Part shown: positions 6,871 to 23,584 of the stretch, piece after piece
Position numbering within the stretch: the first letter of the stretch is position 1
How the letters are laid out: the number at the start of each line of letters is the position of its first letter
Virus record (IMG/VR): IMGVR_UViG_3300046028_000151
Location: 1-26,151 of that record
DNA: 26,151 bases
Direction: 5' to 3' (one strand)
From: a virus
Notes under the pieces: generated by a model
Database searches by the model: none
Told to the model about the DNA's origin: nothing
What the model saw: the letters and a program-made list of their open reading frames with translations, nothing else
Program-made: the position numbers and the translations under genes

Positions 6871-7169
6871 TTCGCCTTTGCCTTATTCCTTGCGGAGATA
6901 GCTTTAGCTTTTGCCTTTGCGTCAGCCTTTGAGGTTGCACCCCATGCTTTTAGCGAAAGAAGCAGTCTTGTTGGTTCACCATCCTTGTACTCTGCACCAG
7001 CCATATTGCCCATGCGAGCCAAGAAACTTGCTCTGCGAGGGTTGTCCCCCGACTTCACTGGAGGCTTCAGATTGCCACCAGTTTCTGCATTATAAGATGA
7101 TCTACCTTTGGCATTCAAGCCGCCTTTTGGATTTTGACCAGCTTTTGTTTGCCAAGTGGGTGTTTTCAT
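6867..7169 (-). CDS. Small basic phage protein with NPKGGLN motif, 100 aa
   Basis: The N-terminus contains WQTKAGQNPKGGLNAKGRSS, then SGDNPRRASFLARMGNM and a Lys/Ala-rich C-terminus (KADAKAKAKAISARNKAKAK). The NPKGGLNxKGR and RRxSFxARM elements mark a family of small basic proteins common in phages of aquatic bacteria whose function is unknown. The charge suggests nucleic-acid binding or packing with DNA. The start ATG 7169 directly abuts the stop of the upstream gene (7170) and uses SD AAAAAGG inside that gene. The 3' end overlaps the next gene by ATGA. Confidence 0.72.
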   Translation of the reverse strand: MKTPTWQTKAGQNPKGGLNAKGRSSYNAETGGNLKPPVKSGDNPRRASFLARMGNMAGAEYKDGEPTRLLLSLKAWGATSKADAKAKAKAISARNKAKAK

Positions 7170-7328
7170 CTACTTTACCTTTTTAGGCTTCTTTGCAGTC
7201 TTTGCTGCTTGTTTGAAGTCAGCGGCAGTAGGTGCGGCTTTAGACCCCACCTTGTTCATCTTCTCACCAGACCCTGCCTTGATACGAGCCTGTTTTGCGT
7301 TAATGTTGGCGTAGAGTCCTTGTTTCAT
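7170..7328 (-). CDS. Tiny Lys-rich phage protein (LYANINAK...AGSGEKM type), 52 aa
   Basis: The translated frame begins MKQGLYANINAKQARIKAG, then SGEKMNKVGSKAAPTAADF, and ends in a Lys-rich tail. The LYANI-xAK-x-x-RI-x-AGSGEKM-x-x-GSK pattern is a recurring small protein of phages and some bacteria; its function is unknown. The ATG at 7328 overlaps the stop of the upstream DUF6496-type gene (ATGA, 7325-7328). The stop ends directly against the next start. Tight coupling on both sides and the conserved motif support it as a true gene despite its length. Confidence 0.72.
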   Translation of the reverse strand: MKQGLYANINAKQARIKAGSGEKMNKVGSKAAPTAADFKQAAKTAKKPKKVK

Positions 7329-7486
7329 TTCTTTTTCTTGGACTTGCCAGCCTCACTCAAAGCAATCGCAATAGCCTGTTTTTGGCTCTTGACAACAGGG
7401 CCACCCTTGCCAGAGTGCAAAGTACCTTCCTTGTACTCGCTGTATACTTTGCTTATCTTCTTTTTTTGTTTTGGAGTTGTTTTCAT
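7325..7486 (-). CDS. DUF6496-type small basic protein, regenerated start beside an HNH insertion, 53 aa
   Basis: The translation carries ISKVYSEYKEGTLHSGKGG and PVVKSQKQAIAIALSEAGK, the hallmark of DUF6496-type proteins (EYKEGTLHSG ... KQAIAIALSEAG); the family function is unknown. Its ATG (7486-7484) shares the CATG palindrome at 7484-7487 with the plus-strand HNH start. Its SD (AGAAAGG, about six bases upstream) lies inside the antisense of HNH codons 3-6. A typical family N-terminus (MKMTKAQKKVS) is instead found 500 nt away at 8022, with its own excellent SD. The present N-terminus MKTTPKQKKK looks like a substitute. Either the HNH insertion displaced the original start and supplied a new one, or this is a second, tandem paralogue. 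Confidence 0.78.
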   Translation of the reverse strand: MKTTPKQKKKISKVYSEYKEGTLHSGKGGPVVKSQKQAIAIALSEAGKSKKKK

Positions 7487-7994
7487 GTCAAACCTTTCTG
7501 AAGTTTGGGCAAAAGTGCCTGATTATGAGCAGTTTTACGAAATTAGCAATCATGGTAGATTTGCTAGATTGCGACCAGATGGAAGAATGATTAGAAAACT
7601 TAACTCTTGCACACCATATCTTAGTGTTTCTGTTAAATCTCTGAACAAGATGCCGCAAAAAAGTTTGTACATTCACACATTGGTAGCAAAAGTTTTTATT
7701 GGAGAACGTCCTGATGGATTGGTAATTAGACATCTTGATGGCAATAAATACAACAATCGAGTTGACAATCTTGCCTATGGAACTGTTCAACAAAATCATG
7801 AAGATGTTGTTAAGCATAAAACTCATCGGCACGAAAACAATGGGAGAGCATTGCTTTCTGAAAGATGTGTTATGGCAATCAAATATCTTCATACTCAAAA
7901 ACTTGTTCGTTCAGTAGACCTTGCAAAAGCATTTGACATCACTGATTCAGCAATATGCGCCATTGTTAAAGGAAGAAACTGGAAAGATGACTAA
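7485..7994 (+). CDS. HNH homing endonuclease (NUMOD4-HNH-HTH), inserted on the opposite strand
   Basis: 169 aa. Residues about 5-35 (EVWAKVPDYEQFYEISNHGR) are a NUMOD4 DNA-binding motif. The HNH_3-type core has H64, then I81-R-H83-L-D85-G, N90-N91, and N95-L-A-Y-G-T followed by N104. Residues about 124-168 form a helix-turn-helix (LSERCVMAIKYL ... DLAKAFDITDSAICAIVKGR), as in free-standing phage homing nucleases. The frame is open further upstream to 7134, but that part is antisense to two conserved genes. ATG 7485 has GGAG eight bases upstream and gives the exact NUMOD4 start. It is the only convincing plus-strand gene and looks more AT-rich than its neighbours, so it is very probably an invading element. 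The SD lies in antisense codons of the DUF6496-type gene. Confidence 0.9.
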   Translation: MSNLSEVWAKVPDYEQFYEISNHGRFARLRPDGRMIRKLNSCTPYLSVSVKSLNKMPQKSLYIHTLVAKVFIGERPDGLVIRHLDGNKYNNRVDNLAYGTVQQNHEDVVKHKTHRHENNGRALLSERCVMAIKYLHTQKLVRSVDLAKAFDITDSAICAIVKGRNWKDD

Positions 7995-18142: not shown

Positions 18143-19402
18143 CTATACACCTGAAATGATGTCAACTGGTTGCCACTCGTCTTCATCATCTGCCTCAAAG
18201 TAAGAGGTTATAGACAACTGATCTATATAACTAAGGGAGTCCGGCAAGTCATCCTGAACACCCTGCGATGGAAACATCAGCAGTTGATCTAGGAACTCTG
18301 TCCAGTCTTCTTCCTTATTAAGCACTATTCTGCCATGCTCAAACCGTCCCTGCAATGCCCAAATCACCCTGTCTGACTTCTTCTTGTTCCCATGCGTCAA
18401 ATCCACAATATGAGCATATATGTTCGATTTTCGCATTAAATCAGACAAATAGGGAAGTACCGCATTTTTCAACGCTCCACGCTCAATCCCAATACTCAGC
18501 GGCTTGTAGTCCCGAATCGCCATCAGAATGTTCACAGCCGTAGTCCGAATGTCCCACCGACCATGCTCAATCTTCTCTACATACCACTTACCATCATCAG
18601 TGACCTTCACTACAGATATAGCCGTTTGATCTAACCGCTTCTTAGAGTTAGCAGCCTGTTTAGCCACCTCCTCAAATCCAGCCAAGTCAACCGCAATGAA
18701 ATAAGAACCCCTCTCAGGGATTTCCCCATACTTAATCCACTCCTCCTTGAAGACATCAGAGCCAGCATTGTCAAAACTAGCCATATATTCTTGCTTGAAC
18801 GCAAAGGAAGATAAGGTCTTCTTGGCACTCTCAATCTCAGCCTCGTCAATCAAAGGGTTGTCCTTGGTGGTGAAATGCCATGACTTCCAGTCAGGGTCTT
18901 GCTCCTCTTGCCCCAAGTTGTACAGGTCATAGAACCAATTCCTACCCTTTGGCGTACCAATAAACATGGCACGACCACGTTTGTCACTCAATGAAGCCCG
19001 AATCACCTGTTCCCAAGTCTCAGGCTTAATGTCAGCTACCTCGTCCAAGACTGCATATGTCAGACTGACACCCCGCAAAGTGTCAGGTCTATCCGAACCC
19101 CTCACATATATCTTGGCCCCATTAATCAAGGTCACTTCCATGTTGTTTACATGGCTAGACTGGATAATCTCACGACCTACATCCAAGAGAACATCCCACA
19201 CAATCTGACGAGCCTGACCTTGGGTGGGCGCAACGTACAGCACCGCCGAGCCACTTGGACAGCTAAGACCCTCAATCAATAAGGTGGTCACGGCTAGGCG
19301 TGACTTACCACAGCGCCTGCCAGCAACCACAACCTTGAACCTCGTCTTATCAGCATACACCTCTTGCTGCCACGGCAATAGCGCAAAGTTCAGATCAGCC
19401 AT
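18143..19402 (-). CDS. terL: Terminase large subunit (ATPase-nuclease)
   Basis: 419 aa. Walker A is AGRRCGKS (residues 27-34) and Walker B is YAVLDEVAD (116-124, D120/E121). The coupling motif MFIGTPKGRNWFYDLY is at about 146-161. The C-terminal RNase H-like nuclease has D239 in FIAVDLAG, E307 in SIGIERGA, and an acidic pair in DDLPDSLSYID (about 384-394) as likely metal ligands. It packages DNA into the prohead using ATP and cuts the concatemer. It overlaps the small-terminase candidate by 8 nt and ends 10 nt before the portal start. Complete, with no missing motif. Confidence 0.95.
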   Translation of the reverse strand: MADLNFALLPWQQEVYADKTRFKVVVAGRRCGKSRLAVTTLLIEGLSCPSGSAVLYVAPTQGQARQIVWDVLLDVGREIIQSSHVNNMEVTLINGAKIYVRGSDRPDTLRGVSLTYAVLDEVADIKPETWEQVIRASLSDKRGRAMFIGTPKGRNWFYDLYNLGQEEQDPDWKSWHFTTKDNPLIDEAEIESAKKTLSSFAFKQEYMASFDNAGSDVFKEEWIKYGEIPERGSYFIAVDLAGFEEVAKQAANSKKRLDQTAISVVKVTDDGKWYVEKIEHGRWDIRTTAVNILMAIRDYKPLSIGIERGALKNAVLPYLSDLMRKSNIYAHIVDLTHGNKKKSDRVIWALQGRFEHGRIVLNKEEDWTEFLDQLLMFPSQGVQDDLPDSLSYIDQLSITSYFEADDEDEWQPVDIISGV

Positions 19403-19820
19403 TCTTAGCCTCGATGTCTTCTATATCTTCTGGCTCAATTGTCGTTGTGGCAACTGTAGGTGCGCCTATGCCTGAAATAGTGATATTGACCGCACTCCTC
19501 TGGCTCTTATCCTTCTCAAACATGGATACAGGCAGGGTACGGTCAACGCACATCTTGATAGCCGCCATTTGTGCAGGGTGATTGTCATTCAACGCAATGG
19601 AAATCATCTTCTCCACGACATCCTTACCGCTAGACTTGATAAGCATATCCTTCAACTCTTTTAACCGCTGATGGTCAGTCTTGGGCAACGCTAAAGCAGG
19701 ATTCCTAGCGTACTCCTGTATCTGCCGCTTTAGGCCAAATGTGCCTTTGGGTCTACCAGCCTTCTTCTTCTGCGGCTCTGGCTCGTCATCCTGAATGTCA
19801 TCAATGTGCTCTATGTTCAC
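19395..19820 (-). CDS. Probable terminase small subunit
   Basis: 141 aa. GTG at 19820 is the chosen start, with AAGGA five bases upstream. The acidic N-terminus is followed by KKKAGRPKGTFGLKRQIQEY (about 18-37), whose GRPKG resembles an AT-hook. A helical core (KDVVEKMISIALNDNHPAQM ... AAIKMCVDRTLP) follows, and the acidic tail ends DIEDIEAKNG. Position directly before the large subunit with an 8-nt overlap, small size and a DNA-binding motif support recognition of the packaging site. Small subunits are poorly conserved, so the name rests mainly on context. Confidence 0.72.
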   Translation of the reverse strand: MNIEHIDDIQDDEPEPQKKKAGRPKGTFGLKRQIQEYARNPALALPKTDHQRLKELKDMLIKSSGKDVVEKMISIALNDNHPAQMAAIKMCVDRTLPVSMFEKDKSQRSAVNITISGIGAPTVATTTIEPEDIEDIEAKNG

Positions 19821-21401: not shown

Positions 21402-21430
21402 TTTGAACCTTTACAAAAAAAACAGACAAC

Positions 21431-21537
21431 AGACAAACCGACAGTGGACAAACCTCTTGTTCATAGACAAGAGGTGGTTTGTCCACATATACTCGGACAG
21501 ACAATTTGGACATTTGTCCGGTTTGTCCGGTTTGTCC
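21431..21537. repeat. Iteron-like array of GGTTTGTCC
   Basis: The 9-mer GGTTTGTCC is found exactly at 21476-21484, 21520-21528 and 21529-21537, and as its complement GGACAAACC at 21446-21454. Near copies are CATTTGTCC at 21511-21519 and AGACAAACC at 21431-21439. The three copies at 21511-21537 are head-to-tail. This resembles initiator-protein iterons or a repressor operator. A one-mismatch DnaA-like box (TTATCCACT, minus strand) follows at 21539-21547. Confidence 0.65.
21444..21486. repeat. Large hairpin within the iteron array
   Basis: GTGGACAAA (21444-21452) plus CCTCTTGT (21453-21460) pair with ACAAGAGG (21467-21474) and TTTGTCCAC (21478-21486). The loop is TCATAG and TGG is bulged on one side. 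It has 17 base pairs, so it would fold in either RNA strand. On the minus strand an eight-T run follows only about 22 nt later, so it is not a classic terminator. It could be an origin cruciform or an mRNA 3' protection element after the primase gene. Confidence 0.6.
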
Positions 21538-21559
21538 AGTGGATAAACATACAGTAGTG

Positions 21560-23584
21560 TCATCCTCCGAACTTCTCGGAGTCCACCTTCAACCATACAA
21601 AACCAGACCCAATTACAACCTTCTTAGCGTCAACAAGTCTCTCCCTTGCCCTAGTCCAAGCCTTCTGAAACGCTGCCTTATCATCCTCAGTACACCCTTT
21701 CATAGACCAGAATTCAGCCTTCCAGTCCTCCAAGTTCACACCATAGCGGGTAGTACCTTCCACTTCACGATATGATGCTTTACTCTTAATGACTTTCATC
21801 AAAGAATCCAACTCCAAACGCTGATTTCCACCACTTCCAGCATTGTTTTTAGCGTTCTTCTTTGTGTTCTGCACGATGTCTTGGTTGGCCTGAACAGCCA
21901 AAGATGTCAGGCTTTCAAACCCCAAGGCTGATGTTGATACATCAATTGCTACGACATCAAATCCAATTGCGATGTCATCTGACCCATCCTTTTGCTTGGT
22001 AACGGTGATAGTTCCCGACCCTCTAACTGAGGGGTCACCAGTGTTGATGACTGAATCCAGTCTGTTTATCTCAAGTTCTGTGTCCACGGCTCCAAGCAGC
22101 GAACTATGGCCTCGCAGTCCCTTAGTGACATCCTTGCCGCTGTGATGGATGACCAGCAAGGCACATTCATATAGTGCTTGAAGTTTCCCTGCTTGGGTGA
22201 TGAAGCCACCCATGTCCTCTGAGGAGTTCTCGTTAAAGCCTCCACCAGACATCCTCATTAGCGTATCTAGAACGATCATTACAAGTGGTTCACCAATTTC
22301 CTCTAGCAAGTCGTTGATTGCTTTGAGTAAATTGTCAAAGTCCTCTTGTGATGATCTAAGGTTAATTTGCGCTCTGATGACGTACAGGGGTGACCCATCA
22401 GGGCTGTTGTTCTTGATCTTGCAAGCCTTAATCCTTGCGCCTAGTCCTCCATGCCCTTCACCTGCGATATACAGAACCACGCCGGACTGCTTGACTTTCT
22501 TGCCCATCCAGTCACGTCCTGTAGCTACCGCCTCAGCCATATCCAAGGCTATAAACGACTTATAGCTGGCTGGTGGTGCATACAAGGCTACAAACGCCTT
22601 CTTTGGGATGATGTCCTCAATTAGCCACTCTACTGGCTCATCCTTGATAGAGTCCCAAGACTCGACCAGAAAACGTGACTTCTGGGCAGATTCAGATTGT
22701 TGTGCTTCAACTTCAGGCACATACATGGCTAGTCTTTGCGGCAGCCAAACTTCATCTATCGACTTGATAACGACACAGGCTTTAGCCATCTGAGCCAATG
22801 TCTTCCTGTCGCCACCATACTTATTAACCCACTCATGAGCATCCTCTTTGGGGTGTTTAAGGTCTAAATCCAACACCCTGATGCTCTTTGCGACTGGTAG
22901 GAGTGCCTCCACGACCTTTTGGGCATAACTCCACCCTGCTGTATCGTTATCCGGCACGATCACCACATTAGCGCCAGCAAAGTACTGGTTGAGTTCTGGA
23001 CTCCAGTTGCCTGAACCAGCGTGAGATGTTGTAGCCACGACCCCAAGGCTGCCTAAAGCATCTGCCGCCTTTTCTCCTTCAGTCACATAGACAACCCGAC
23101 CTGCGGCAGTTGCTTCTTGCAGATCGGGGAGCCTGTAGGGGACGATGCGGCAGTCTCCTAGCTTGCTTTGCCTAGAGTTGTCGGGCATGACTCTGAGGGT
23201 CTTGTATGTTTTTCCTTTAGCGTCATTGGTCTTGAATCTTTGCTTCACAAACAGGCTGACACCATCTTCATCTGTGTAGTGCCACTCCTGTTGGAATGTC
23301 GGTGTCTGGATGTAGGGTAGGGGTTTGATGCTTGAGAGGTATTCAGTGCGTTCAGGGAGTGATGGGAGGAGTCCCATATCTCTAATTGTTTGGAACACGG
23401 TGTGCTGATCGCAACCGCTAAAGCATTTGAATAAGTAGTTGCCATCATCATTCATTGCGATGTGAAGGCTAGGGTTTTTGTCTCCATTGCCTTGACCGTG
23501 ACTAGGTACAGGGCAACTAGCTAGGTAACCATTACCTGTCTTTTTGGGGTGTCCCAACGCAGTGGCTAGTTCTTGTGCTGACAT
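21560..23584 (-). CDS. Primase-helicase fusion (zinc finger, TOPRIM, RepA-like ATPase)
   Basis: 674 aa. Residues about 20-60 form a CHC2-like zinc finger (C24, H29, C54, C58). The TOPRIM core has VTEGEKAADAL (168-178, E169/E171) and VIVPDNDTAGW (208-218, D212/D214). From about 320 a RecA/RepA-type ATPase follows: APPASYKSF (336-344) is its P-loop, with K342-S343. Walker B is VMIVLDTL at 435-442, and VIHHSGKD (478-485) is a characteristic following motif. It would prime and unwind phage DNA; the same bifunctional logic as T7 gp4 but with a RepA-like rather than DnaB-like helicase. It lies between the SSB-like gene and the iteron array. No strong SD is visible before ATG 23584. Confidence 0.88.
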   Translation of the reverse strand: MSAQELATALGHPKKTGNGYLASCPVPSHGQGNGDKNPSLHIAMNDDGNYLFKCFSGCDQHTVFQTIRDMGLLPSLPERTEYLSSIKPLPYIQTPTFQQEWHYTDEDGVSLFVKQRFKTNDAKGKTYKTLRVMPDNSRQSKLGDCRIVPYRLPDLQEATAAGRVVYVTEGEKAADALGSLGVVATTSHAGSGNWSPELNQYFAGANVVIVPDNDTAGWSYAQKVVEALLPVAKSIRVLDLDLKHPKEDAHEWVNKYGGDRKTLAQMAKACVVIKSIDEVWLPQRLAMYVPEVEAQQSESAQKSRFLVESWDSIKDEPVEWLIEDIIPKKAFVALYAPPASYKSFIALDMAEAVATGRDWMGKKVKQSGVVLYIAGEGHGGLGARIKACKIKNNSPDGSPLYVIRAQINLRSSQEDFDNLLKAINDLLEEIGEPLVMIVLDTLMRMSGGGFNENSSEDMGGFITQAGKLQALYECALLVIHHSGKDVTKGLRGHSSLLGAVDTELEINRLDSVINTGDPSVRGSGTITVTKQKDGSDDIAIGFDVVAIDVSTSALGFESLTSLAVQANQDIVQNTKKNAKNNAGSGGNQRLELDSLMKVIKSKASYREVEGTTRYGVNLEDWKAEFWSMKGCTEDDKAAFQKAWTRARERLVDAKKVVIGSGFVWLKVDSEKFGG

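Follow-up and report, generated by a model that had tools for sequence, protein, structure and literature searches.

A candidate replication origin downstream of a phage primase-helicase gene, with iterons that co-vary with the helicase C-terminus

The 158-nt gap that follows the primase-helicase gene in a phage genome record is very probably an origin of DNA replication (we put the probability at roughly 85%, judging from sequence comparison), and its short repeats, or iterons, would be bound by the winged helix predicted at the C-terminus of the adjacent primase-helicase. This reading is adopted because of the repeats themselves, a layout that is kept among relatives, co-variation of the repeats with the C-terminal domain of the helicase, and the exclusion of a neighbouring 214-aa protein as the determinant of the repeats. 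It proposes replication origins for a widespread and mostly uncultured phage group, cultured roseophages included, and offers a natural set of initiator–origin pairs in which DNA-recognition specificity is readable from sequence and directly testable.

The gap, its iterons and its hairpin

The window (the whole stretch of DNA analysed here, a virus record of 26,151 bases) carries almost all of its genes on the minus strand. The genes around the gap are all on this strand, which places the gap past the 3′ end of the primase-helicase gene, downstream of it, and ahead of the 5′ end of the 214-aa gene. The features of the locus are listed here by position in the window.

21560–23584, minus strand: primase-helicase gene, 674 aa, with a DnaG/TOPRIM-like primase region, a RepA-like AAA_25 helicase and a predicted C-terminal winged helix
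21563–21829, minus strand: C-terminal domain of the primase-helicase, residues 586–674, predicted winged helix (AF2 model, Foldseek)
21402–21559, minus strand: 158-nt gap, candidate replication origin, with position and layout kept in 106 distinct relatives
21529–21537, minus strand: iteron 1, GGACAAACC on the gene strand, tandem, exact copy
21520–21528, minus strand: iteron 2, GGACAAACC on the gene strand, tandem, exact copy
21511–21519, minus strand: iteron 3, GGACAAATG on the gene strand, tandem near copy
21476–21484, minus strand: iteron 4, GGACAAACC on the gene strand, hairpin arm 1, exact copy
21446–21454, plus strand: iteron 5, inverted, hairpin arm 2, exact copy
21431–21439, plus strand: iteron 6, inverted, AGACAAACC, one mismatch
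21444–21486, minus strand: bulged hairpin or cruciform, with a 10-bp outer stem, 3-nt bulge, 7-bp inner stem and 6-nt loop
20757–21401, minus strand: 214-aa gene, downstream of the gap and kept as a neighbour in relatives

Upstream of the primase-helicase gene lie a DUF2800/PD-(D/E)XK nuclease gene and a RuvC-like gene. Among the genes of the window none was recognised as a polymerase gene, and a non-exhaustive scan found no polymerase family among the scanned genes or other ORFs of a 35-kb relative (G001). The sole sizeable ORF kept on the opposite strand (7134–7994, plus strand) has, by eye, the look of an HNH/NUMOD-type homing endonuclease. A search for the host through bacterial genomes gave a single match, weak and partial.

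Within the gap, GGTTTGTCC or its complement occurs four times exactly and twice as a near copy, and the copy positions bear out the initial annotation, which had counted six such copies, three of them tandem, within the 158 nt. The tandem run of three extends over 21511–21537 and includes iteron 3, which reads CATTTGTCC on the window strand and has two mismatches to GGTTTGTCC. The significance of the array rests on clustering beyond chance rather than on the window-wide motif count. Four of the window's five exact copies sit in the gap, and in 1000 dinucleotide shuffles of this gap no 9-mer ever arose four times; over the whole window, GGTTTGTCC with up to one mismatch has 13 matches against 7.0 expected, a mild enrichment reached by 4 of 100 shuffles. 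When 15 records were searched with GGACAAAC, at least two close copies were found solely in the gap of GACAAAC-type phages.

The hairpin spans 43 nt and has 17 bp in total, of which the outer 10 bp are built from both members of an inverted iteron pair; here too the original description of a 17-bp bulged hairpin made from two repeat copies holds. Folded as single-stranded DNA, the gap reaches −30.5 kcal/mol, whereas its shuffles average −15.9 (z −5.4; none of the 200 attains the value of the gap). Among 14 distinct clade-1 hairpins, 99.6% of cells are paired and 7 of the 17 pairs show changes on both sides, values that no shuffle attains. Paired changes in the outer stem occur because two iterons pair there. 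The inner stem, which is not made of iterons, likewise has compensatory changes, and this argues that the palindrome or hairpin matters in its own right. The motif GTCTA is present within 420 nt past the stop codon in 98 of 106 loci, compared with 12 of 61 tiles of equal length cut from the window; in relatives it is mostly found at the hairpin apex, in the majority of repeat classes. In the CT, AA and ACG repeat classes and in the roseophages, the apex carries CCCTTTAGGG or CCCTTAAGGG in place of GTCTA.

Co-variation of the repeats with the helicase C-terminus

A TOPRIM primase and a helicase are fused in one polypeptide, which has PHROG matches to primase and primase/helicase, an NCBIfam match to TIGR01391 (dnaG; residues 150–261, 7.9e-8) and a Pfam match to AAA_25 (5.7e-38). 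Positions 338–496 of the helicase profile match RSF1010 RepA (PDB 1g8y, E 1e-5). The C-terminal domain, for which sequence comparison with the PDB and Pfam gave no convincing match, is likely a winged helix according to its AF2 model (alignment A2; core pLDDT 82–89, moderate confidence). The modelled order is helix, two strands, helix, helix, two strands, and the top Foldseek matches of the model are CRP-type winged helices, matched weakly (E 0.04 at best). Residue K641 lies within the third helix and is contained in the predicted recognition helix, at about residues 633–652.

Relatives were gathered by three protein-based scans of viral contigs, giving 106 distinct pairs of C-terminus and gap. 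Nearly all of the 106 gaps hold direct repeats together with an inverted pair around a short palindrome; that of L219 is interrupted, and no hairpin was obtained from it. The layout is constant, while the repeat sequence switches wholesale, with types that include GGACAAAC, GTTACAAA, GTAACAAAC, GCGACAAA, GAGACAAA, CCTACAAA, TAAACAAA, TCAACGAATGG, ATCAGAA and more. The outcome named in the initial annotation as refuting its reading, gaps of close relatives that lack repeated 9-mers, is not what is seen: repeats are present there, although the 9-mer itself differs between relatives. In clade 1, all repeats of L077 and L079 have changed together from the GACAAA to the TAACAAA/TTACAAA type on an otherwise unchanged scaffold, and the distinctive change in the recognition helix of these two loci is K641V. 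Some gaps (L058, L059, L062, L067, L073 and L075) contain an extra block of iterons and inverted repeats on the gene side of the main array, and L101, L105, L107 and L157 have an inverted iteron pair directly behind the helicase stop codon, apart from the main array. Two distant homologues, MW202711 and Microcystis phage Mae-JY30, are without such repeats at the corresponding position.

The last ~90 residues of the primase-helicase appear to recognise the repeats. All helicase columns were scored for association with repeat class (NMI, uncorrected for relatedness), and the mean score is 0.45–0.51 for residues 586–674 against 0.18–0.21 for residues 1–585; the 214-aa protein has a mean of 0.26–0.27 and a maximum of 0.50. 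The best-associated column of the whole helicase is that of K641 (NMI 0.86, and 0.85 within clade 2 alone). With repeat classes assigned by pattern matching and many of the compared loci being close relatives, residue 641 is K in 51 of 52 xGACAAA loci (Q in the remaining one), T in all 23 TTACAAA loci, and M or V in all 17 TAACAAA loci.

Since the column scores are uncorrected for relatedness, a comparison of pairs and contrasts on a tree were added. Among pairs with 95% or more identity in the helicase body, identity of the winged helix is 88% where the repeats are the same and 47% where they differ, and the 214-aa protein is 91% identical in either case. On a tree of the N-terminal part, G or not-G in the iterons agrees with K or not-K in eight of eight independent contrasts (p 0.008); agreement of T with TT versus TA is found in five of five, a number too small to reach 0.05. 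There are exceptions: L058 has Q at 641 despite a GACAAA repeat, L220 has K with a GTTACG-type repeat, and L172 and L180 have nearly identical winged helices and repeats that differ in their flanking bases. The last pair implies that other residues matter, and the exceptions together mean that the specificity code is not residue 641 alone.

The 214-aa product, named in the initial annotation as a protein that might bind the array, was rejected as the repeat binder. Its sequence does not follow repeat class, searches of Pfam, PHROG and NCBIfam gave no family matches, and its model has no recognised DNA-binding fold.

Four cultured roseophages present the same pairing, with two repeat types matching two winged-helix types. 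The array of one of them is located as follows.

L261, 3018–3203: gap of Roseobacter phage CRP-823 (PV211013.1), an iteron-plus-hairpin array

CRP-823 and CRP-811 have ten copies of ACTACAAA in the corresponding gap, and in CRP-821 and CRP-831 these are replaced by copies of GTATAAA; the hairpin apex CCCTTTAGGG is common to all four. CRP-823 and CRP-821, which differ in their repeats, are 96% identical in the helicase body and 72% in the last 85 residues (the winged helix), whereas CRP-823 and CRP-811, which share theirs, are 89% and 98% identical, respectively. The terms ‘origin of replication’ and ‘repeats’ are both absent from the paper on these roseophages (PMC12629253).

An exact scan for the tandem 18-mer (tandem GGACAAACC) found 29 viral loci, about 12 of which are close relatives, against eight with a reversed-pattern control. 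At L016, L022, L025 and L027, unrelated AAA_25 helicase genes with the same orientation stop 26–111 nt short of the 18-mer; none of the eight control loci has an AAA_25 gene at that position. The 18-mers of L020 and L023 were rejected as origins, being inside long repetitive coding frames, and at L003, L010, L028 and L029 no long gene ends just ahead of the 18-mer. At L008, L011, L012 and L014 it lies 135–139 nt past a long gene, which in L008 is Prim-Pol/DUF3987, another kind of replication protein. By eye, the unrelated helicases of L022, L025 and L027 have K-A-[FY]-x-R-A in common; this motif was kept as a lead and not counted as evidence, because in the L022 alignment it is four residues out of register with K641.

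Proposed initiation and other explanations

The initiator is most likely a self-loading TOPRIM-primase/RepA-like helicase that works in the manner of the P4 and SaPI modules. Its C-terminal winged helix would bind the GGACAAAC iterons, as direct copies on one side and as the inverted pair in the hairpin, and this binding would gather several copies of the primase-helicase at the origin. A ring of the RepA-like helicase could then assemble there, presumably by loading itself, and open the DNA, perhaps aided by hairpin extrusion. The TOPRIM primase of the same polypeptide would subsequently prime at or near the hairpin (its use as a priming site is speculation) and a host polymerase would extend the primers, with the origin firing at the gap.

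The candidate origin put forward in the initial annotation is supported by the kept layout, the co-variation with the helicase C-terminus and the presence of repeat clusters solely at this site in long records. Cumulative GC skew, proposed at the same time as a check, points weakly the same way in five of six contigs, where the detrended minimum is 0.8–1.7 kb from the gap; in the sixth it is 3.5 kb off. The minimum is always displaced towards the helicase gene and is confounded by the near one-strand gene layout.

The co-variation data would also fit binding of the repeats by the primase-helicase mainly for regulation (autoregulation, copy control or incompatibility, as with plasmid iterons) and not for initiation, and the second iteron block or the inverted pair right behind the stop codon in some relatives would suit such a role. 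We regard this as unlikely: there is one cluster per long record searched, a role in regulation only would leave these repeats no other candidate origin, and a 3′ site is unusual for autoregulation. A replication origin read by the winged helix is preferred also over an operator or control region serving either the 214-aa gene or an early repressor, the second of which had been suggested at the outset. The position of the gap between two genes, directly ahead of the 214-aa gene, would be appropriate for an operator; however, the 214-aa protein is without a recognised DNA-binding domain and remains 91% identical despite a complete change of repeats, which track the helicase's own C-terminus. 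The copies occur in one place only, and the longest relative, G001, has a Cro/CI-type HTH (HTH_3) gene elsewhere, making an operator very improbable.

A packaging (pac) site read by the small terminase has a comparably slight chance of being correct. A small-terminase-like gene (19395–19820) lies about 1.6 kb from the gap, ahead of the large terminase gene, but it is the helicase C-terminus that the repeats track. The direct comparison of terminase with repeats covered few different-repeat pairs that have both genes and carries no weight either way. Least probable of all is a function in the transcript, as an RNA structure or a terminator: the hairpin is stable, with compensatory changes and one outer-stem pair that is G-U in 7 of 14 clade-1 relatives, but there is no Rfam match, no intrinsic terminator (a GC-rich hairpin with an immediate U-run) was found at the gap, and the outer stem consists of two inverted iterons whose sequence tracks a DNA-binding helix.

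The odds are about even that, within a large class of tailed phages whose primase-helicases are RepA-like, the origin carries an interchangeable ‘password’, in which winged helix and iterons repeatedly switch together, at least partly by whole-module exchange, and the base that precedes ACAAA is determined largely by residue 641. The pressure for such a password to diverge could come from competing phages, from satellites or from origin-directed nucleases. Diversifying selection on origin specificity, if it operates, would bear on the ways in which phages and satellites infecting the same cell evade or exploit one another's replication; PLE and ICP1 illustrate that antagonists can select for altered origins and exchanged replication modules (PMC8263062).

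Comparison with known initiator–origin systems

The alpha protein of satellite phage P4 is described as a single polypeptide in which a TOPRIM-type primase and a helicase are joined to a C-terminal origin-binding domain, a winged helix that reads repeats (PMC4234260, citing Ziegelin and Lanka 1995 and Yeo et al. 2002). The primase-helicase here resembles it in the fusion of TOPRIM primase and helicase and in a C-terminal winged helix, in this case predicted, that would read repeats. The P4 alpha helicase is of the SF3 class, whereas the helicase here is RepA-like AAA_25; the repeat sequence is different, the hairpin here is armed with iterons, and the host of the module is a tailed phage and not a satellite.

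The Rep–ori modules of SaPIs and other PICIs and Cch2 of SCCmec have a short-iteron origin directly 3′ of the initiator-helicase gene (PMC7581432, PMC6092414), and for SaPI Rep and Cch2 there is experimental evidence that the C-terminal domain recognises iterons placed just past the 3′ end of the helicase gene (PMC7581432). As in the P4 and SaPI modules, an origin-like iteron array lies directly 3′ of the initiator gene in the 106 distinct loci described here. The SaPI and Cch2 helicases belong to the DUF927 or D5/Primase_Cterm kinds, and their primases are archaeo-eukaryotic; the helicase here matches AAA_25 only in Pfam and RSF1010 RepA in the PDB; the combination of TOPRIM primase and RepA-like helicase is therefore not classed within the SaPI Rep family. 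In PICI origins, two sets of iterons flank an AT-rich stretch, whereas here the iterons flank the hairpin and a T-run is on the far side.

Plasmid RSF1010 has iterons read by RepC and hairpins that serve priming (PMC4234260). Likeness to it extends to a RepA-family helicase (1g8y), iterons and a hairpin, but RSF1010 uses three separate proteins, RepA, RepB′ and RepC, while helicase, primase and apparent iteron reader are fused here; the repeat class tracks the helicase's own C-terminus and not a separate RepC-like reader. In plasmid pRN1 and phage BIP-1, the gene for a primase-helicase with a C-terminal winged helix is followed directly, on its 3′ side, by a stem-loop (PMC4234260), an arrangement that recurs here with a predicted winged helix; these systems have an archaeo-eukaryotic primase and an SF3 helicase and are without iterons. 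RepA of the Vibrio satellite PLE and its origin iterons are exchangeable cognate modules (PMC8263062), much as initiator and iterons switch together here. PLE RepA belongs to the RepA_N family and has no predicted primase or helicase (PMC7145576), its DNA-binding domain is unrelated to the present one, and its iterons are ~30 bp. What is new relative to the P4 and SaPI modules is a TOPRIM primase fused to a RepA-like helicase and probably working likewise.
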